From positions 682,001-746,000 of the forward strand of contig NZ_JAJNKB010000001.1 of NCBI RefSeq assembly GCF_021533195.1: DNA of 64,000 nt. Direction: 5' to 3'. Below, piece after piece: positions 11,007 through 20,305 of the stretch. The position numbers and the translations under genes were made by a program. The stretch's first letter is position 1, and each line of letters opens with the position of its first letter. The notes under the pieces were generated by a model that did not search any database, was not told the origin of the DNA, and saw only the letters and a list, made by a program, of their open reading frames with translations. The DNA comes from Portibacter marinus. GTDB taxonomy: Bacteria; Bacteroidota; Bacteroidia; Chitinophagales; Saprospiraceae.

Positions 11007-13724
11007 TTAATTCAAAATTATCTTTTCAGAAAACACTTTGTCACCTTGTGTAATTCTAAGAATCAACATTTGAGTATCCGCATTGTCGATACGTATGTTC
11101 TCATCAAAAGACCCTTTAAATAACGGGAAATCCCGTGCGACTACTTCTTTTCCCTGAACGTCGAATAACTGAAGTTTTAAAGGTTTTGCTTCTCCTTTAA
11201 ACTTAATATTGATCTGTTCCTTAGCCGGATTAGGAAAAACTTGCACGTTTTCAAGTTCTAATGAACGAAGCTCTGTATTGGTCACTTTTTCATCCTTCTT
11301 AGCCTCCGGTAATTTGAATCTAATAGGTAAATTCAATTCCATAGCCACCGGTTTTCCGTCTTTCATTGCAGGTTCCCAAGTGGTTTCATCCGCCATTTTA
11401 GCAACTGTTTCAAGAGCAGATCCACTTAATCCGTCTAATTCCCGTTTAAGTGAAATATTTCTAATTTTACCATCTTTGCTGATAATGAATGAGGTGACTA
11501 CCATTCCTTCCTGACCTTTTGCAGCAGCTTGCTTGGGATACTTGAGGTTGGTATAGATATATTCCAAAAGTTTTTGCTTAGAACATTGTTCTTTAGATGC
11601 GGAATCTTCCAGATCACTGCAACCAGGGAAGTAAGCTGGAGTATCGAAGTCAGCAACAGCTTTTTCTGCGTGATCTTTAGTCACCACCTCAACAATGCCT
11701 CTAACCTTTCCAACTCCAAATTTATCGTCAGCCTTCTCCCCTTTATAAACATTTACACTAGCGATATTATCTTTATCAATATCCCTCATTTCACCTTCGA
11801 AAATTTTACCATTTAGGTAGATGATAGGATTGTCCATTTCTTGATCTACTTGATCTTCAGTAACAGTATGGTCTTTAGTTGTAATTTGAACAACACCGTA
11901 CTTTCCTTCCTCACCGTAAATTTCCATCGCTACCTGACCTTTCATTACGTTGATGGACTCAATTTCAGTCGGATCTAATTTTGAAATAATGTCAGCTTTG
12001 CTTTTTTCTCCATTTAATATCATTAATACCGGCCCTTCAGACGCGAGTCCATTAAAAATCAATTTGGAATCTGAAGTGACATTAGCAATATCTTTTATTG
12101 CGATATTTTCTTCATCTTTTTTTGATACATCGGAATTTTTATCCTCTTGCAATTTAAACCTCACGGGTAAAGTGTACAATACATTGACCGGCTTCCCTCT
12201 CTGCAGACCTGGTTTCCACTTTTCATCCATACTATTAACTACCTCTAATACAGACTTGTTGGTCCCTTCACTTATAGAGCGCACTACTTTAGCATTGGCG
12301 ACCTTGCCTTCTTTAGTGACCACGAATTGCACCACCGACATCCCTTCTATACCTGCTTCACGATCTTTTTTTGGATACTTTAAATTAGTATAGATAAACT
12401 CTAACATTTTTTGCTTGGCACATTGCTCCTTATCTTTTTCTGTGCCTTCTATATCTTCACAACCGGGAAAACGGGGCATTTCTTCCACGATTTTAAAGAT
12501 TTCCATAGGGAGCTCACCATCAGTGGTTACTTCAGGTTTTTCTTTTCTATCTTGCCTCTTGCCATAACCAACCACCACAACCTCGTCCAGATCACTTCCG
12601 ACACCCATAGTGACGTTGATCACTTTATCCGTATTGGGGACCATTTTTTCGACACTGTTTCTGCCCGTATAAGAGAATAATAGTTTTGAACCCGCGGTTG
12701 CTTTGAGAGAAAAAGAACCATCAACATCTGTAACTGTCCCATTCTCTGAAAATTTCTCTACAACGTTGACTCCGATCAGTGGTTCCCCGCTTTCTTCTGC
12801 CGTAACCGTCCCGGATATGGAGACTTTCTCAACAAGTTCTGTCTTATTTAATGCAGCTTCATCACCATTAAATGAGAAAGTAAAAGCGAATAAGAGTAAC
12901 AATAACACCGGAATTCCAAGTGCATACATAACTATAGTCGGACGTCCTGAGCGTTTTTGATTAATCATCTTAATTCTGTTTTTTAAATGTGAATTGAAAA
13001 ATTGATGGGTCAATCCCATCTGTAGATTGTTGTTGGTTTGTGCCAATAACAAACTCTTATATGTCTTTTTACTGGAGTTTTTAATGACCACTTGATCAGC
13101 CAAGTATTCATGGACTTCCTTCAATGCGTTTTTGTAAAAGTAAATCATCGGACTGCACCAAAAAACCACCTTTAAGATCTCGGTGATGATGATATCATAA
13201 CTATGTCTTCCCTTAATGTGCTCTATTTCGTGCTCCAGAATTCTATTGATCTCCTTAGACATCTCAATTTTCTTGCTGAAAAATATCCACTTAAAAAAAG
13301 AGAATGGCAAGTGAACCTGATCCGTTAGAAGTAATGTATATCCAGCTTGCACTTTCTTTTCTGCACCGTGATAGATTTCAACAATCTTTCGAATTCCAAT
13401 CATCAAGCGCGTCAAACTTATAATTAACCCTATAGCATAGATGAAGTACAAAATAGTATACCAAGCAAATTGATCTTTTTTCTGTGTTGCAACAACCGCC
13501 TCAAGGTCATCGATTTCCATCAGTACCGGATAGATGACATAAGCAACATTCGATTCATTTTTCCATGGTATAAATTCTAACAAGGGAAGTAAAATTCCTG
13601 TGACCAGAGTAATAAGCAAGTAAGATCGATTAGCAGTAAAGAAGGTCTTTTTCTTTAAGAATAACTCATAGATTCCATAGAAAAAAAGCCAACAGAGCGT
13701 AACTTTAAGTAAATATGCAATCAT
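11007..13724 (-). CDS. M56 (BlaR1-like) metalloprotease fused to two TonB C-terminal domains and a T9SS tail
   Basis: 905 residues. Residues 1-285: BlaR1/MecR1-type M56 membrane protease with four transmembrane segments and zinc motif HEIEH (165-169), with EVHEYLAD (203-210) giving the third ligand. About 300-376: carboxypeptidase-like regulatory domain (ISGTVTAEESGEPLIGVNV), then the VVVVGYG motif (383-389) that normally opens a TonB receptor plug. About 405-520 and 705-820: two TonB C-terminal domains, each ending a PGC...EQC...EYIYTNLKYP block. Between them are two plug-like segments (GPVLMILNGEKS and PIIYLNGKIFEGEM). 830-905: a Por-type T9SS sorting domain (VFPNPAKEQINIKF). Paired with BlaI by a 4-bp overlap. 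A fusion of this order is unusual; see findings. Confidence 0.9.
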   Translation of the reverse strand: MIAYLLKVTLCWLFFYGIYELFLKKKTFFTANRSYLLITLVTGILLPLLEFIPWKNESNVAYVIYPVLMEIDDLEAVVATQKKDQFAWYTILYFIYAIGLIISLTRLMIGIRKIVEIYHGAEKKVQAGYTLLLTDQVHLPFSFFKWIFFSKKIEMSKEINRILEHEIEHIKGRHSYDIIITEILKVVFWCSPMIYFYKNALKEVHEYLADQVVIKNSSKKTYKSLLLAQTNNNLQMGLTHQFFNSHLKNRIKMINQKRSGRPTIVMYALGIPVLLLLLFAFTFSFNGDEAALNKTELVEKVSISGTVTAEESGEPLIGVNVVEKFSENGTVTDVDGSFSLKATAGSKLLFSYTGRNSVEKMVPNTDKVINVTMGVGSDLDEVVVVGYGKRQDRKEKPEVTTDGELPMEIFKIVEEMPRFPGCEDIEGTEKDKEQCAKQKMLEFIYTNLKYPKKDREAGIEGMSVVQFVVTKEGKVANAKVVRSISEGTNKSVLEVVNSMDEKWKPGLQRGKPVNVLYTLPVRFKLQEDKNSDVSKKDEENIAIKDIANVTSDSKLIFNGLASEGPVLMILNGEKSKADIISKLDPTEIESINVMKGQVAMEIYGEEGKYGVVQITTKDHTVTEDQVDQEMDNPIIYLNGKIFEGEMRDIDKDNIASVNVYKGEKADDKFGVGKVRGIVEVVTKDHAEKAVADFDTPAYFPGCSDLEDSASKEQCSKQKLLEYIYTNLKYPKQAAAKGQEGMVVTSFIISKDGKIRNISLKRELDGLSGSALETVAKMADETTWEPAMKDGKPVAMELNLPIRFKLPEAKKDEKVTNTELRSLELENVQVFPNPAKEQINIKFKGEAKPLKLQLFDVQGKEVVARDFPLFKGSFDENIRIDNADTQMLILRITQGDKVFSEKIILN

Positions 13725-14241: not shown

Positions 14242-14562
14242 ATGAAAAACAATGCTATTTTTCACATCAACCTTCAAGGGCTGGATCTCAGCGAGGACCA
14301 AACACGAGAACTGGAGCAAAAACTAACCGATACCACTATGGAATATCTCGGTAGTTTTAAAGCAGGAAAGGACTTTATTTCTAATGCTGTTGCCTACACT
14401 CCTCATCCTGATGATCCGTATCCATGGCCGTTTCCTTGGCCCGGACCTTGGGGACCTATCCTGGGACCCATTGGACCATATCCTTTTCCAAGACCTTTCC
14501 CTGGCTTCTTTCCGATTAATAGAAAAATATTGGACAGAACACTGGTCAGTTTAAAGAAGTGA
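14242..14562 (+). CDS. Pro/aromatic-rich small protein, possible exported or modified peptide precursor
   Basis: 106 residues, no family recognised. Residues 1-50 look like a leader: a beta-like opening (AIFHINLQGLDL) and an amphipathic helix rich in Glu/Gln/Lys (SEDQTRELEQKLTDTTMEYL). Residues 51-92 are a low-complexity core of alternating Pro with Trp, Phe, Tyr, Gly (for example PYPWPFPWPGPWGP at 59-72, then PYPFPRPFPGFFP at 79-91). A short charged tail NRKILDRTLVSLKK ends it. There is no signal peptide and no cysteine. The next gene starts 1 bp after its stop and a NisT-like exporter follows. It could instead be a structural repeat protein; precursor status is inference from context. Confidence 0.7.
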   Translation: MKNNAIFHINLQGLDLSEDQTRELEQKLTDTTMEYLGSFKAGKDFISNAVAYTPHPDDPYPWPFPWPGPWGPILGPIGPYPFPRPFPGFFPINRKILDRTLVSLKK

Positions 14563-14563
14563 T

Positions 14564-14920
14564 ATGGATACTAAAAAGTCTTGTCCGAGTGCTCCTTACA
14601 AAAAGGGGCATTCGGTTTTCGGAAAATTTGAAGGAAATACATTGCAATATCTGGAAGAACTGGATGTTATTGAGTCTGGAGATCTTGAATTTGGCAAACA
14701 TGAAAACGTAAGAGCAACCATGCCATGCGTCACGAAGGGTTGCATTAACTGGAACGGCAATAAATGCACTGTTCCGGATCAAATGTCCCATTATTTTAAT
14801 CCTGTCCAAGATTTATCTGCCGTTGAAAACTGTCCCATTAGAAGCAGTTGCAGATGGTATGCTCAGGATGGTGATCGCGCCTGTAGCATCTGCCCATTGA
14901 TCCAAACGAAGTTTTTCTAA
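14564..14920 (+). CDS. Cys-rich small protein (probable metal or Fe-S binding)
   Basis: 118 residues, no signal peptide, no family I can name with confidence. Eight cysteines: C7, then a C-x4-C-x7-C group (C55, C60, C68) and a C-x5-C-x10-C-x2-C group (C90, C96, C107, C110), with the block CPIRSSCRWYAQDGD at 90-104. Cysteine spacing of this kind suggests two metal or iron-sulfur sites. It starts 1 bp after the Pro-rich gene, so the two are co-expressed, and it ends 125 bp before the exporter gene. A role as a maturation partner of the preceding peptide is an inference from order only. Confidence 0.7.
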   Translation: MDTKKSCPSAPYKKGHSVFGKFEGNTLQYLEELDVIESGDLEFGKHENVRATMPCVTKGCINWNGNKCTVPDQMSHYFNPVQDLSAVENCPIRSSCRWYAQDGDRACSICPLIQTKFF

Positions 14921-15012
14921 CTACCCATATCTATGTCGCACCCTGACTTTATAACTTTCTCAAAACCATGATCGCTTAGGTTTGAATTAGGCCCGTTGAA
15001 ACAAAACTTTAT

Positions 15013-15020
15013 TACATTTG
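15013..15020 (+). promoter_or_regulatory. Predicted -7 element upstream of the exporter gene
   Basis: TACATTTG matches TAnnTTTG and ends 25 bp before the GTG start at 15046. A -33 element at the ideal distance is not visible, so the exporter may also be read through from the preceding small genes. Confidence 0.4.
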
Positions 15021-15045
15021 GTTAATAGGTCTAGAAACTTAATTT

Positions 15046-16887
15046 GTGGCAAGAAATTTAACCAGTTTACAGAAGGCGAACAAAAAGACGGATCTTAAAA
15101 CCTCCTTCAAGGCCCTTAAATACATTCCACGTTTTTTTAAGGAGATATGGTTAATCAATCCTGGAATGTTTTTGGCCAATGGCAGCTTGAGGCTCATCAA
15201 TGCCTTTGCTCCTGTAATCATTTTATGGGTCGGTAAGATCATCATTGACCTTATCATAGACCAAACCAAACTTACTGCAGCAGAACAGGATTATAGTCAG
15301 ATATGGAAGTTTGTAGCGATCGAATTGGGTATTTTCATTGTTTCTGACGTCATCAACAGGCTCATCACTTTAACTGATGGTCTTATGGGAGACCTGTATT
15401 CAAACAGCTCTTCTGTCACCATCATTAACAAGACGAAAGAATTAGGCATTGCTCAGTTAGAAGACCCTGACTTCTATGATAAACTTGAACGAGCCAGAAC
15501 ACAGACCAACAGTCGTGTAAATCTCCTTTCCAATTCACTCAGTCAAGTTCAAAGTGTCATCTCTATCATCACACTAATGGCCGGACTTATTTTCTTTGAA
15601 CCTCTACTTATTATATTGTTGGTGCTAAGCATCATACCCTCATTTATAAACGAAGTCAAATTTAGCAATAAGAGTTACTCTCTGGCCAGGTCATGGACTG
15701 CAGAAAGACGTGAATTGGATTATTTAAGATATATAGGTGCTAATTCTAATACAGCTAAGGAAATCAAGCTCTTCGGACTTACCGGCTTTGTAGCTGACCG
15801 TTTTAAAACCTTGTCTGATAAGTACTATGAGCTGAATAAAAACATTGTCATTAAGAAAACAGGCTATGGTATCATATTCAACATCCTCGGTGTGCTTTCG
15901 TATTATGGTGCCTATGTATATATTATACTTAGGGTGCTGACAGGAGTGCTGACCATAGGTGAATTGACCTTTCTTTCCGGTTCCTTTAATCGCTTGAGAA
16001 ATAATCTGCAACAGTTCTTCTCTAGATTTACCAGAATTGCAGAAAGCGCGTTGTATCTGAAGGATTACTTTGACTTTATTGACTTAAAAGTACCTGAACA
16101 TGAGGGGGAATATTTACCCTTACCCAAAGAAATCCAAGAAGGATTCTTTATAAAAGACCTCTATTTCAGATATCCGGGTGGTGAAGATGACGTTTTAAAG
16201 GGCGTAAACTTCCGAATCAATGCAGGAGAAAAAATGGCCTTCGTGGGTCAAAACGGTGCTGGCAAAACGACATTGATAAAATTAATCTTACGCTTTTATG
16301 AGCCCACCTCGGGCGAAATTCTGCTTGACGGTGTCAATATCAATCAGTATGATCCTCTGGAATATCAGGCGATGTTCGGCGTTATTTTCCAGGACTTCTT
16401 TAAGTATGAATTCACTTTAAAAGAAAATATAGCAGTCGGAAATATCGATGAATTAGAAAATCAGGAAAGGATAGAAACGGCCGCAAGTCTCAGTCTGGCT
16501 GATGAGGTTGTATCAGCCATGCCGGAAGGATATGAACAGCAGTTAGGCCGAAGGTTCGTACGTGGCCAGGAACTCTCCGGTGGTCAATGGCAGAAAGTTG
16601 CCCTTGCCAGAGCATATATGAAAGACGCCAATGTCTTGATTCTGGATGAACCCACGAGCGCGCTGGATGCTAAAGCAGAATTTGATGTTTTTGAGCGATT
16701 TATCAATCTGACCACGGGTAAAACAAGCATCATCATTTCGCACAGATTCTCTACCGTCAGAATGGCGGATCGTATCATAGTCATTGAAGATGGTAAAATT
16801 TCCAGCATTGGCACCCACGAAGAATTGATGCAAGATGAAGGTTTGTATGCTGAATTATTTGAACTACAGGCAGCTGGTTATCAATAG
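15046..16887 (+). CDS. NisT-like ABC exporter (fused membrane and ATPase domains)
   Basis: 613 residues. Membrane domain about 1-330 with the usual helices; nucleotide-binding domain about 350-605: Walker A GQNGAGKTT (about 400-408), signature LSGGQWQKVALARA (about 509-522), Walker B ILILDEP-like VLILDEPTSALD. The signature LSGGQWQK is the form found in NisT-type lanthipeptide and related bacteriocin exporters, rather than the lipid exporter form. There is no N-terminal C39 peptidase, so any leader removal must be done elsewhere. It would work as a homodimer in the inner membrane, exporting a peptide. Start is GTG; no better start is visible before the conserved region. Ends 1 bp from the convergent thioredoxin-like gene. 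Confidence 0.88.
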   Translation: MARNLTSLQKANKKTDLKTSFKALKYIPRFFKEIWLINPGMFLANGSLRLINAFAPVIILWVGKIIIDLIIDQTKLTAAEQDYSQIWKFVAIELGIFIVSDVINRLITLTDGLMGDLYSNSSSVTIINKTKELGIAQLEDPDFYDKLERARTQTNSRVNLLSNSLSQVQSVISIITLMAGLIFFEPLLIILLVLSIIPSFINEVKFSNKSYSLARSWTAERRELDYLRYIGANSNTAKEIKLFGLTGFVADRFKTLSDKYYELNKNIVIKKTGYGIIFNILGVLSYYGAYVYIILRVLTGVLTIGELTFLSGSFNRLRNNLQQFFSRFTRIAESALYLKDYFDFIDLKVPEHEGEYLPLPKEIQEGFFIKDLYFRYPGGEDDVLKGVNFRINAGEKMAFVGQNGAGKTTLIKLILRFYEPTSGEILLDGVNINQYDPLEYQAMFGVIFQDFFKYEFTLKENIAVGNIDELENQERIETAASLSLADEVVSAMPEGYEQQLGRRFVRGQELSGGQWQKVALARAYMKDANVLILDEPTSALDAKAEFDVFERFINLTTGKTSIIISHRFSTVRMADRIIVIEDGKISSIGTHEELMQDEGLYAELFELQAAGYQ

Positions 16888-16888
16888 T

Positions 16889-18573
16889 CTAACCTTCTGA
16901 TAGCAAGACATCGATATCGACATCTTTAATAGAAAATATTTTATAGGGTAAATAGTTTGAATTCTTGTCAAAGTACAAGTAACAAGGTACCGGTGGTAGC
17001 TGAAAATATTCATAAATTTCAGAACTAAGCTTTTTATCGAGGTAAACATGTTCTCCCTGCGCATAGGTATCTATTAAACTCTTCTTCCATAGTTGCTGAG
17101 AGCTTTTATAGTCCAGGGCCAAAGTAACCAGACCCAAAGGTTGTTTCGCCAGTTTATCATATGTTCTTCCTGACATGGTTAGTTCATCAACACACTCTTC
17201 GCATCTGGTATGCCATATATATATATCATGATATCTTTTTCAGCATAAAATGATTTGATTTGACCCAATAACTCAGGTACTGATTGGGCAGTGCTGATCC
17301 AGACTCTGGCACCCGTATTCATATGTTCCAGGAATTTTCCTAACTCAGGTTCAGTAGTTGATGCAACGGCATTCCTAACATCTTCGCTGATATCATCAAC
17401 TCTGGCTTTAAAAATTTCTAACTCGTTCATTGCCAATTTCTTCTGCCAATCACTTGCTAATACGGGAACAATGTTCGTCAGATACTTAGTCCTGTCTGGC
17501 AGATCTAATGGTTGACCTTTAATGGCTACCAAACCTTTTTTATTTTCAGGTAAATTATTCAGCTTGCTGATGAAAAGATCAAGTTTCGCTTTCTCTACTA
17601 ATTCATCATATTTCCTGATATAGATTTCTAAGCCTTCTGCGTAGACTTCCGTGTCGTAAGCCAAGCCTGCCTTTTTCTTATCCTGTTCCGCCAGGAAGCG
17701 ATCTACATTCTTTTTATCTTCCGGGTCACTGCTATCGCCATTATAAATGATTCTCGATAGAGACCGAATCTCTTTTTCTTCGTGACTCAAAAGTTTCAAT
17801 GCCAGCATACTATAATATCTGATGCTATTTTCACTGATGACAGCTGGAATATGACCAGTAATTTCTGCCCATAAATCATCTTTCATGGTTTTGCCGACAT
17901 ATACGTAGGCAAAATCAGCATACATCTCTGTGGATCTTTCATTTTCTAAAATCCAGGCATAAGATCTATCATGCTTCTTCAAGAACTGTTTTTCGATCTT
18001 AATCAAATCGTCATAAAGTGATCTGATCTGTTTGACTTTGTATTCTTTCTGTGAAGTCCTGTTCATGATGGTGCTGTATTTCAGTCCCTTAAACTCGTTC
18101 TTCTTATCTACTTTGAAATCTAAATAAGCATTATAAAACGAGTTCAATTCAGCATCGCTACCCTCAAATTGAATCGCTTTGTTTTCAAACTGATCGTATT
18201 TCCCTTCCAGTGCCTTTAGGTCAATGATAATTTTCAAATCATGGTTAGAAATGATCGCACCAGCGTAAATGTCACTGATTTTAAATAAAACTTTTTGATA
18301 GGGGTACTTATGATCCAAAGTAAGTTTAAAACTACCATCTTCATGGATTGCTGCAGTCTTTTGTACAAAACCTCTAAAATCAGGAGATAAGATCGTATAC
18401 TGAATAAACACATCCTGGTGATTATGTGCTGAATAGCCTGTTAATTTACCTTCGATATTGGGAAGGCTATCTAAAAATTGGCCATTTTCTATGTTGAAAT
18501 CAGCTTGTGCATTGGTAAAGGCGGACCAACCAAGGAAAAGGATGAGGAGGGTAATCTTATTCATTTTTCGCAT
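16889..18573 (-). pseudogene. Periplasmic thioredoxin-like protein, frameshifted at an (AT)6 repeat
   Basis: Read as two frames: 464 residues (17179-18573, ending after VLMN and a TAA) and 95 residues (16889-17176). Deleting one AT unit from the repeat at 17215-17226 joins them into one 560-residue protein in which the junction reads IYIWHTRCEECVDEL, giving a thioredoxin active site C457-E-E-C460 with the preceding Trp, followed by LDYKSSQQLW and a cis-Pro segment VPCYLYF. That is the length and layout of the intact paralog immediately upstream (562 residues). Signal peptide MRKMNKITLLILFLGWSAFTNAQ, then a DUF4369-like domain. Could be a pseudogene, a phase-variable switch or an assembly error; the second fragment alone has no active site. 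Confidence 0.85.
17215..17226 (+). repeat. (AT)6 dinucleotide repeat inside the thioredoxin-like gene
   Basis: Twelve bases of perfect AT repeat at the exact place where the reading frame is lost. With five units the gene is intact and the active-site CEEC is encoded; with six, as here, translation stops about 15 codons later. Confidence 0.9.
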
Positions 18574-18616: not shown

Positions 18617-20305
18617 CTAAATGCCAGCTTGTTCACGCACTTCTTTTCTCATGTCTTCCAGGTTAAAATCATCTAAATTTTGGATTACATAAGGGTCAAA
18701 GTAACCGGTTGAATCAATAAACAAGTAGGAAGGAAAAGTTCGCAGATCTAATAATTCCATAATGTCAGCGGAAAGTTTTTCAGAAAGAAAAATATGCTCA
18801 CCTTCCCATGGAAAATCGAGGATAGACTCCATCCAATATTCTCTCTGCACATCGATCCCACTGCATAAGTAGACCATTTTGACCGACATGGTATCTATTG
18901 CTAATTGTAATGACTTACTATTGATAAGGTCGCTTTTACATCGATCCATCCAGGGTACCCAGAGATCTATGATGATCGGTTGATTTTCATATCGCTTCCT
19001 AATACCAGATATCAACGCATAAATATCTTCTGTTGCGGATAGGAAAGCATTTTCTAAATCTGGCAGAGGAGCTAACACTGTAGCACTAGCCTTCCTTTCT
19101 GTAATTTCAGAATTGATTTGGTCCATCCACTCAAGATCCCTCGTCATGTCTTCATCTCCTATATGTTTTGCCCAATTGCTGAATTTGGCAGCATTTACTT
19201 CCGACAAGTAGACACTCCTTTCTTGTAAAGACTGAGGCTGGCTTACCAACATGACATAATCAGATTTATTTTTTGGAAGTTGGGCCATTTTCTTGATATG
19301 AAAGGCTGTTTTCGCTCGAAAAAGTTCTTTTTTATAAGGGTCAAGGAAATACTCCTTTCCTACTGTATAGATGTCCTCATCGTATCGTCTGAAGTCTGTC
19401 TTTTTATTAAATTCTCTTAGAAAAATGTCTAGGTCTGCCGAACTGTAAGCTTCATTTAAATGATTGTGGAGCGTTTTCTCAGTAATCATTTTTGTTTCTA
19501 ATCTGTTAGGCACCCCAAGGAAAAATCCCAGAAAGTCATAATACTGAACGGTTGCATTGGACGTTAGGATAGGATTAAAACTGGTGCATTCCGCAAACAA
19601 ATCCTGGTTCATTCCCTTTCCCCAATGTACCGTCAGAATATCTGCATACATCGATGCCATTCTATCATTGCTCAAGACCCATTCCAGAGCTTTACCGTTT
19701 TTTTTCACATACTTTTTCTCCAGAGAGGCGAGTTTCTTATTGATCTTTCGAATTTCTTCGACTTTGTCATTCTTATCCAGGTCCTGACTCAGAATAAGTG
19801 CCAATTTCTCCTCTTGTAATTCCTTCTTACTTTCTACTTTAAAATCTTCATAGCCATTTACAAACAGCGAAATTTCCGCGTCTTTACCTTGCATTGCTAC
19901 ACCGGGGCCCAGGTGATAAACCGGCTGATTTTTCAAAACCTCCAGGTCGAATTGAAGATGTATTCCATCATTGACCATCAACTTACCATAATACAAGTCT
20001 CCGAGAGCTATCCAAATCTCCGTGTATGGAAAACACTGCAATCCCATTTCAAATGAACCATCATTCTCAATTTCGAATGCACCTGCAATTTGCCTTCTGA
20101 AAGTCGGAGTAGAAATGGTATATCTTAAAATAAGTCCGCTGTCCTTGAGAGGATCAAAGTTGACCAGTTGTCCTGTAATTTTAACTTCTGATGTTTTATC
20201 GCAAAGTTGATTTATCTTATTGTGGGATTCAAGTTGCTTTGTGTTTTGGCCGTACAAACACAGCATATAAAGGAGCAGAATGCCGGTGAGTGTTGATTTT
20301 CGCAA
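18617..20305 (-). CDS. Periplasmic thioredoxin-like protein with a DUF4369-like domain
   Basis: 562 residues: signal peptide (MRKSTLTGILLLYMLCLYG), a DUF4369-like domain (about 40-165, ITGQLVNFDPLKDS ... GDLYYGKLMVNDGI), a long helical middle region, and a C-terminal thioredoxin fold. The active-site position reads PWMDRCKSD (451-459): the first cysteine (C456) is kept but the second is replaced by Asp459, so disulfide exchange by the usual CxxC route is not possible. The cis-Pro loop TFPSYLF is kept. TTG start; no ATG is available. First gene of a two-gene operon whose second member, 43 bp downstream, is its frameshifted paralog. Anchoring of a family in Bacteroidota periplasm and cell envelope is inferred. 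Confidence 0.82.
   Translation of the reverse strand: MRKSTLTGILLLYMLCLYGQNTKQLESHNKINQLCDKTSEVKITGQLVNFDPLKDSGLILRYTISTPTFRRQIAGAFEIENDGSFEMGLQCFPYTEIWIALGDLYYGKLMVNDGIHLQFDLEVLKNQPVYHLGPGVAMQGKDAEISLFVNGYEDFKVESKKELQEEKLALILSQDLDKNDKVEEIRKINKKLASLEKKYVKKNGKALEWVLSNDRMASMYADILTVHWGKGMNQDLFAECTSFNPILTSNATVQYYDFLGFFLGVPNRLETKMITEKTLHNHLNEAYSSADLDIFLREFNKKTDFRRYDEDIYTVGKEYFLDPYKKELFRAKTAFHIKKMAQLPKNKSDYVMLVSQPQSLQERSVYLSEVNAAKFSNWAKHIGDEDMTRDLEWMDQINSEITERKASATVLAPLPDLENAFLSATEDIYALISGIRKRYENQPIIIDLWVPWMDRCKSDLINSKSLQLAIDTMSVKMVYLCSGIDVQREYWMESILDFPWEGEHIFLSEKLSADIMELLDLRTFPSYLFIDSTGYFDPYVIQNLDDFNLEDMRKEVREQAGI

Follow-up and report, generated by a model that had tools for sequence, protein, structure and literature searches.

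The stretch of Portibacter marinus DNA analysed here (64,000 nucleotides, referred to as the window) contains two small adjoining genes, which encode a 106-residue precursor-like peptide and a 118-residue protein with eight cysteines, termed the Cys protein. These two genes are a real conserved unit. With moderate confidence, we interpret them as a module of the RiPP type (ribosomally synthesized and post-translationally modified peptide), consisting of a precursor and a dedicated cytoplasmic partner that likely binds or modifies it, and within this interpretation we lean towards a metal-bearing protein acting on the core of the peptide. The pair and the adjoining exporter gene are located as follows.

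14242-14562, + strand: 106-residue precursor-like peptide (open reading frame, homologues, AlphaFold2 model)
14392-14517, + strand: tail of the peptide (residues 51-92), including PWGPIL as putative core (G71 kept, eight-residue motif, composition)
14564-14920, + strand: 118-residue Cys protein with eight cysteines (51-sequence alignment, model; family and fold libraries without a match)
15046-16887, + strand: 613-residue MsbA-like ATP-binding cassette (ABC) exporter without a C39 peptidase domain, GTG start (family match; judged to lie outside the unit)

The stop codon of the peptide gene ends at 14562 and the ATG of the Cys gene starts at 14564, leaving a single base between them, followed by a gap of 125 bases between the Cys gene and the exporter gene. 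Proline is absent from residues 1-50 of the peptide, and the 42 residues of its tail (51-92) comprise 16 prolines together with 16 residues that are W, F, Y or G; cysteine does not occur in the peptide. The cysteines of the partner are located at positions 7, 55, 60, 68, 90, 96, 107 and 110. The open reading frames, their composition, the peptide model and a profile scan bear out the description given in the original prediction, which had been made from the letters of the DNA: a helical leader with a proline- and aromatic-rich tail, one base, an eight-cysteine protein and an exporter lacking C39.

Conservation and spread of the gene pair

The second genome of the window's genus contains the pair in identical order, with 71% identity for the peptide and 62% for the Cys protein. 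Because the same order is found there and the pair recurs across the phylum, the arrangement goes beyond chance. Searches with a profile built from eight Cys proteins yielded matches in 7 of 395 Bacteroidota genomes sampled across the phylum, 5 of 100 genomes of the window's family, 58 of 222 genomes of the family f10, which includes Spirosoma (two of these weak and partial; G647, G676), and 27 of 246 genomes of the family f4, all from its genus g16 and one of them weak with stops (G898).

From the genome searches and named loci we gathered 76 loci with Cys proteins, many of those from g16 being near copies. A mechanical rule, accepting a same-strand small leader-type gene whose stop lies from 260 nt upstream to 40 nt inside the Cys gene, identified an upstream leader-type peptide gene at 69 of the 76. 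The proposed partnership of the Cys protein with the peptide was thus borne out as a constant linkage. Explicit leader patterns fit 65 of the 69 peptides (52 of the window type, 13 of the double-glycine (GG) type), the remaining four being accepted by a looser GG rule alone, and in 52 of the 65 pattern-fitting loci the peptide stop lies at most 20 nt from the partner start. At L087, one of the four accepted by the looser rule, the wrong open reading frame was chosen, a leader-type peptide being present at -9 instead. The seven loci outside the 69 comprise two with an adjoining peptide missed by the rule (L038, L016), one with a peptide at -583 (L039), three with the peptide downstream of the Cys gene (L045, L086, L111), and L048. 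An in-frame stop splits the Cys gene of a Leadbetterella metagenome-assembled genome (L009, 7989-8360; also G637 and L023) into 83 residues and a rest of about 40, representing either a pseudogene or a sequence error.

From the side of the peptide, we searched 26 genomes with a profile of 19 non-GG peptides (A4) and obtained 18 matches distributed over 16 genomes. Of these matches, 17 fell at known Cys loci and the sole other one was weak (G441, E 0.003), whereas the 8 genomes that lack a Cys gene had no match; many of the matched peptides had helped to build the profile.

Relatives of the Cys protein also exist outside the Bacteroidota. A tblastn search of plasmids detected them in Agrobacterium vitis, three Streptomyces, Nostoc and Polymorphobacter, where the underlying annotation was either 'hypothetical protein' or none. 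Further relatives lie on three IMG/VR contigs and one phage-labelled record. A phage gene identity was rejected, with none of 51 Cys proteins matched in PHROGs, as was a role in anti-phage defence, with none of eight members matched by PADLOC.

Putative leader and core of the peptide and the eight-cysteine partner

The AlphaFold2 model of the window peptide, calculated from 19 sequences with a mean pLDDT of 62, contains one confident helix (residues 18-47), whereas the blocks of the tail are disordered, with pLDDT values of 45-49. Such a helix followed by a disordered tail is the pattern expected of a leader and a core, which makes the protein precursor-like, and the model thereby lends support to the earlier suggestion that it is a precursor. 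G71, within P-W-G-P-I-L, occupies the column kept in all 19 A4 sequences. Alignment, substitution rates and model together delineate a separate conserved amino-terminal leader and a carboxy-terminal core in this small gene.

Three leader types occur with the one partner family: the window type (F-x-V-x-L-x-G-x-x-L...), the GG type in f10 genomes (Spirosoma among them) and, in Nostoc, an NHLP leader. For the carboxy-terminal parts we searched for shared motifs from residue 31 onward in 37 of 38 non-redundant peptides, leaving out one Streptomyces open reading frame (L166); three further Streptomyces upstream frames were likewise outside the set. At width 8, a motif of approximately [PFEW]-x-[LIWV]-G-[ILMYF]-[WIV]-[LI]-[DPKR] scored above 4 nats in 36 of the 37 peptides, with a log-likelihood ratio of 178.8 compared to a mean of 106 and a maximum of 110 for 12 shuffles, a control that ignores relatedness, which inflates both this result and that at width 6. 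We further trained the motif on one leader class and scored the other, using three widths in both directions, whereupon 38, 25, 206, 512, 45 and 637 of 2000 shuffles equalled or exceeded the observed value. This test excluded six peptides, two picked partly by their core pattern and four added later; a test that included them gave counts of 3 and 39 of 2000, and we rely on the weaker, unbiased result.

The ratio of non-synonymous to synonymous substitutions (dN/dS) in 26 peptides of g16, the only genus tested, was lowest in the leader (0.038) and the core (0.052) and higher in the spacer (0.12) and at the end (0.19), with segment boundaries of our own choosing. These values indicate a conserved product rather than a diversifying toxin, at least in this genus. 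A tail more variable than the leader, which had been proposed as a check, did not emerge: the core is under purifying selection and nearly as constrained as the leader, and only its flanks are looser. A hypervariable tail is therefore rejected for g16 by dN/dS, and a comparison by eye of the window's genome with the second one of its genus likewise shows a well-preserved tail.

Alignment of 51 Bacteroidota Cys proteins (A3, from 54 non-redundant sequences after leaving out three close g16 members, with the window protein replacing its duplicate) revealed the invariant residues C7, P8, G20, R50, C55, C60, C68, C90, C96, R97, W98, Q101, C107 and C110, of which R97 differs in two Streptomyces relatives. 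The eight invariant cysteines perhaps form two Cys4 metal sites, holding either iron-sulfur clusters or zinc. The AlphaFold2 model of the Cys protein (pLDDT 85.3, pTM 0.80) displays strands in the first half and helices in the second. Foldseek searches with this model returned nothing trusted from PDB (best E 3.4) or BFVD (best E 2.2), and VIA-align yielded no structure with Z >= 2 among 94 chains. Likewise, no family was assigned to the Cys protein by Pfam or NCBIfam (the latter for the window member only), nor to the 106-residue peptide by a scan of both. The best sequence match in PDB, Interleukin-17A with E values of 0.04-0.1, was taken as noise from cysteine spacing and rejected.

A less probable alternative, to which we nevertheless attach some weight, is that the Cys protein is no enzyme and acts as binding, chaperone or self-protection partner of a hydrophobic, unmodified peptide, comparable to class II microcins. 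The strict co-occurrence of the two genes would suit such a binding pair. Against this alternative, immunity proteins for exported peptides mostly work at the membrane or in the periplasm, and the Cys protein looks soluble. Moreover, the invariant R50, R97, W98 and Q101 together with the eight cysteines give the impression of catalytic or ligand-binding residues.

Exporters, modifying enzymes and gene neighbourhoods

In the 613-residue protein of the window we found the signature LSGGQWQK. Its match to TIGR01193, the model for C39-bearing peptide exporters, reached 171 bits against a cut-off of 523.85 and covered only positions 472-707 of 708; as the match is confined to the carboxy-terminal part, no C39 domain is seen. 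The original prediction considered this protein a NisT-like exporter dedicated to the peptide, which would make a three-gene system. The exporter is indeed linked to the pair in the window (+482 from the Cys gene) and in the second genome of the genus (L076, +1669), where one intervening gene is by eye serine hydrolase-like; in f10, ABC exporters belonging to other types are found close to pairs. However, 37 of 61 genomes from the window's family, its own included, encode close homologues of the exporter (50-66% identity), and 34 of these 37 lack a Cys gene. The other three are G000, G416 and G441, and in the latter two exporter and Cys gene are on different contigs. We read 24 exporter loci other than the window's own, each over a distance of at most 1.5 kb; none had the pair beside it, and the neighbours there differ. 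LSGG(Q/E)WQK was present in 25 of 25 exporters read and is not diagnostic, since these close homologues are widespread without the pair. A dedicated exporter was consequently rejected on co-occurrence, and we regard the three-gene system as highly improbable; the exporter is probably only a neighbour, outside the unit. Conserved gene order with this exporter, the check proposed for it, was not found beyond the genus in the loci read, and that part of the prediction falls, whereas the place of the pair in peptide pathways is unaffected.

Other genes near the pair include, on the - strand at 11007-13724, a 905-residue M56 (BlaR1-like) peptidase fused to CarboxypepD_reg, two TonB carboxy-terminal domains and a Por secretion tail; this gene adjoins a regulator of the penicillinase-repressor type, and its counterpart in the sister genome (L076) has 1228 residues. 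Downstream of the exporter, two tandem related proteins of 464 and 562 residues, belonging to one sequence cluster, are encoded on the - strand (17179-18573 and 18617-20305), the former with a weak Imm70 match below the cut-off (E 2e-4). Rfam families and simple promoter and terminator patterns gave nothing above chance.

To place the pair in context, we examined 42 neighbourhoods of at most 20 kb, several of them truncated where a contig ends, alongside 40 control regions taken from 30 of these genomes at a displacement of 70 kb to about 1.1 Mb. Fused ABC exporters were present in 10 of 42 neighbourhoods versus 2 of 40 controls, or in 8 of 40 without the window's genus; among the ten are both exporters of that genus and one, in L092, that lies on the opposite strand. 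The corresponding numbers were 7 versus 0 for LanB, 2 versus 0 for LanC, 7 versus 0 for HlyD, 7 versus 1 for TolC, 10 versus 1 for both LytTR and HisK, and 2 versus 0 for DUF7005. The P values of these enrichments, 0.26 to 0.0045, serve as guides only, with queries taken from the test set and related genomes counted singly. Leaving out the window's genus and L092, an exporter of the C39 or NHLP type, LanB or LanC occurred in 14 of 42 neighbourhoods. Family models confirmed one representative each of LanB (PF04738, 2.6e-153), LanC (PF05147) and DUF7005, and a representative C39 exporter as well as the NHLP export trio of the f10 member L107 scored above curated cut-offs. One LanB examined was full-length, whereas L108 has its LanB split into two open reading frames and the LanB of L109 is truncated by the end of the region; LanB and LanC occurred together in none of the 42 neighbourhoods. 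The carboxy-terminal parts of 15 GG-leader peptides from f10 clusters, partly selected by their core pattern, are hydrophobic and free of cysteine.

Within these clusters, L091 and L099 each have at least two GG-leader peptides ahead of a single Cys gene, in both cases with a LanC-like gene. A DUF7005 protein lies between NHLP exporter and GG peptide in L107 (8329-9462, by model), L100 (by similarity) and L159 (7463-8617, by position only), and is perhaps part of the same pathway. Peptidases are found near many otherwise lone pairs, namely an M4-type with an emfourin-like gene (L080, by eye), a caspase C14 (L087), M43 (L010), CHAT with M28 (L160), a subtilase-like protein (L156, by eye) and papain-type enzymes (L162, L167), and could process the leader.

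Outside the Bacteroidota, the Cys gene of Nostoc sp. C057 comes immediately after an annotated NHLP RiPP precursor. Within 9 kb of it lie SagB, a TOMM (thiazole/oxazole-modified microcin) leader-binding protein and genes for NHLP export, and its surroundings also include a nif11 radical-SAM (S-adenosylmethionine) gene. In Polymorphobacter a small leader-like frame follows the Cys gene, with an annotated radical-SAM gene about 100 bases further on the other strand. Within the Bacteroidota, a plasmid of Spirosoma oryzicola carries annotated NHLP export genes, a GG-leader peptide and the Cys gene. Four Streptomyces plasmid loci (L161, L162, L166, L167), mostly beside genes of the nonribosomal peptide synthetase type, contain a Cys relative, which in L167 is unannotated and degenerate-looking. 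These relatives are preceded by a frame of 45-82 residues ending in Cys, and before it in 3 of 4 loci by a helix-turn-helix gene; they perhaps represent a branch that has diverged to work with another peptide or to serve in regulation. This arrangement, the many pairs standing alone and the low dN/dS of core and leader in g16 would also be compatible with a stand-alone intracellular regulatory or structural pair, such as a sensor of metals or redox state together with a small ligand protein, outside any secreted pathway. We consider this improbable, as GG and NHLP leaders accompany C39 and NHLP exporters in several genera.

In the window genome itself, LanB (PF04738) gave no match in a weak search that matched 0 of 14 control genomes either, and YcaO gave none, compared to matches in 5 of 14 controls. 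The genome contains one SPASM radical-SAM protein, located on another contig, with no obvious precursor among its neighbours by eye. The claim that no lanthipeptide, radical-SAM or YcaO enzyme lies nearby thus stands, within the reach of the LanB search. Lacking a LanB or YcaO match and with the lone SPASM protein elsewhere, the Cys protein becomes the leading candidate if the peptide is modified in this genome.

Several observations weigh against a peptide-modifying module. The three leader types are unlike each other despite the single partner family, the Streptomyces upstream frames resemble none of them, the best width-6 pattern falls mostly inside the leader and not in the core, and a core motif shared across leader classes is only suggestive. 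None of the ten window proteins scanned is a known modifying enzyme, and because the Cys protein has no fold match, its metal sites are ones that we infer rather than recognize. The neighbourhood enrichment is inflated by relatedness and by queries drawn from the test set, all 14 RiPP-type neighbourhoods belong to f10, and among the 12 neighbourhoods from families other than f10, 10 lack any match to an exporter, LanB or LanC. Two further GG-type frames in L099 carry one Cys each, so that other precursors may explain its LanC. The bare neighbourhoods outside f10, together with the hydrophobic, Cys-free GG peptides, are also what a chaperone for an unmodified peptide would predict.

Relation to known peptide systems and proposed mechanism

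Established classes were considered and rejected for the window pair: a lanthipeptide, with no synthetase among the ten scanned proteins and no Cys in the peptide; a radical-SAM RiPP, the SPASM maturase not being beside a precursor; a YcaO-dependent thiazole/oxazole peptide, with no YcaO match in the genome; and an NHLP/Nif11 precursor, with no leader-model match for the window peptide and nine relatives and such an annotation only in the Nostoc relative. Parts of the wider family do resemble these systems. The Nostoc NHLP precursor, the NHLP export trio of L107 and the annotation of the Spirosoma oryzicola plasmid recall NHLP/Nif11 (proteusin-type) clusters, whereas the window peptide has neither an NHLP nor a Nif11 match and no NHLP exporter nearby. 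LanB (7/42) and LanC (2/42), accompanied in several neighbourhoods by a C39 exporter, HlyD, TolC and LytTR/HisK, are reminiscent of class I lanthipeptide clusters of Bacteroidota, from which the pair differs by the Cys-free cores of the 15 GG peptides and by LanB and LanC never occurring together. With NisT-type lantibiotic exporters the window exporter shares LSGGQWQK, a likeness pointed out in the original prediction, and the lack of C39, but its type is widespread in the family without the pair. Bacteroidetocins, described in the accessible part of their report as class II bacteriocins that have a GG leader together with a transporter of the C39 type (PMC10352776), are matched in these two traits by some f10 members; in contrast, a Cys-rich partner is not mentioned in that part of the report and the window leader lacks GG (PMC10352776).

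By anatomy and context the pair appears RiPP-like, with a partner outside known families. Our observations comprise the gene pair, its conservation and the RiPP-type context, and the steps of metal binding, recognition, modification, cleavage and export are extrapolated from them. In the module that we favour, the amino-terminal helix of the 106-residue precursor would act as leader, and a short hydrophobic core of approximately W-G-[IP]-[IW]-[IL] in the disordered tail would be recognized or changed. The Cys protein, probably through two Cys4 sites with Fe-S or Zn, would most likely bind the peptide and either modify its core or hold it until processing. In the window's genus, leader removal and export would fall to general machinery, whereas in Spirosoma-type relatives C39 or NHLP exporters would perform both.

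A wider proposal, which we put forward tentatively and with less than even confidence, is that the Cys protein founds a class of peptide-modifying metalloproteins of about 120 residues, acting on a W/L-G-[ILM]-[IVW]-[LI] core from at least three dissimilar leader types and defining a RiPP class in Bacteroidota, Cyanobacteriota, Pseudomonadota and Actinomycetota that is unnamed in the family libraries used. A literature search, of partial coverage and including few subscription journals, retrieved nothing recognizable as this pair.

An LSGGQWQK exporter beside a small gene is by itself no evidence of a dedicated peptide system. The pair, in turn, offers a testable handle on an apparently unnamed peptide pathway with relatives in four phyla, and might help to explain RiPP-like clusters whose visible precursors lack Cys. 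Should the Cys protein prove to modify the peptide, it would represent a maturase of very small size, for which the family and fold libraries used contain no detectable relative.

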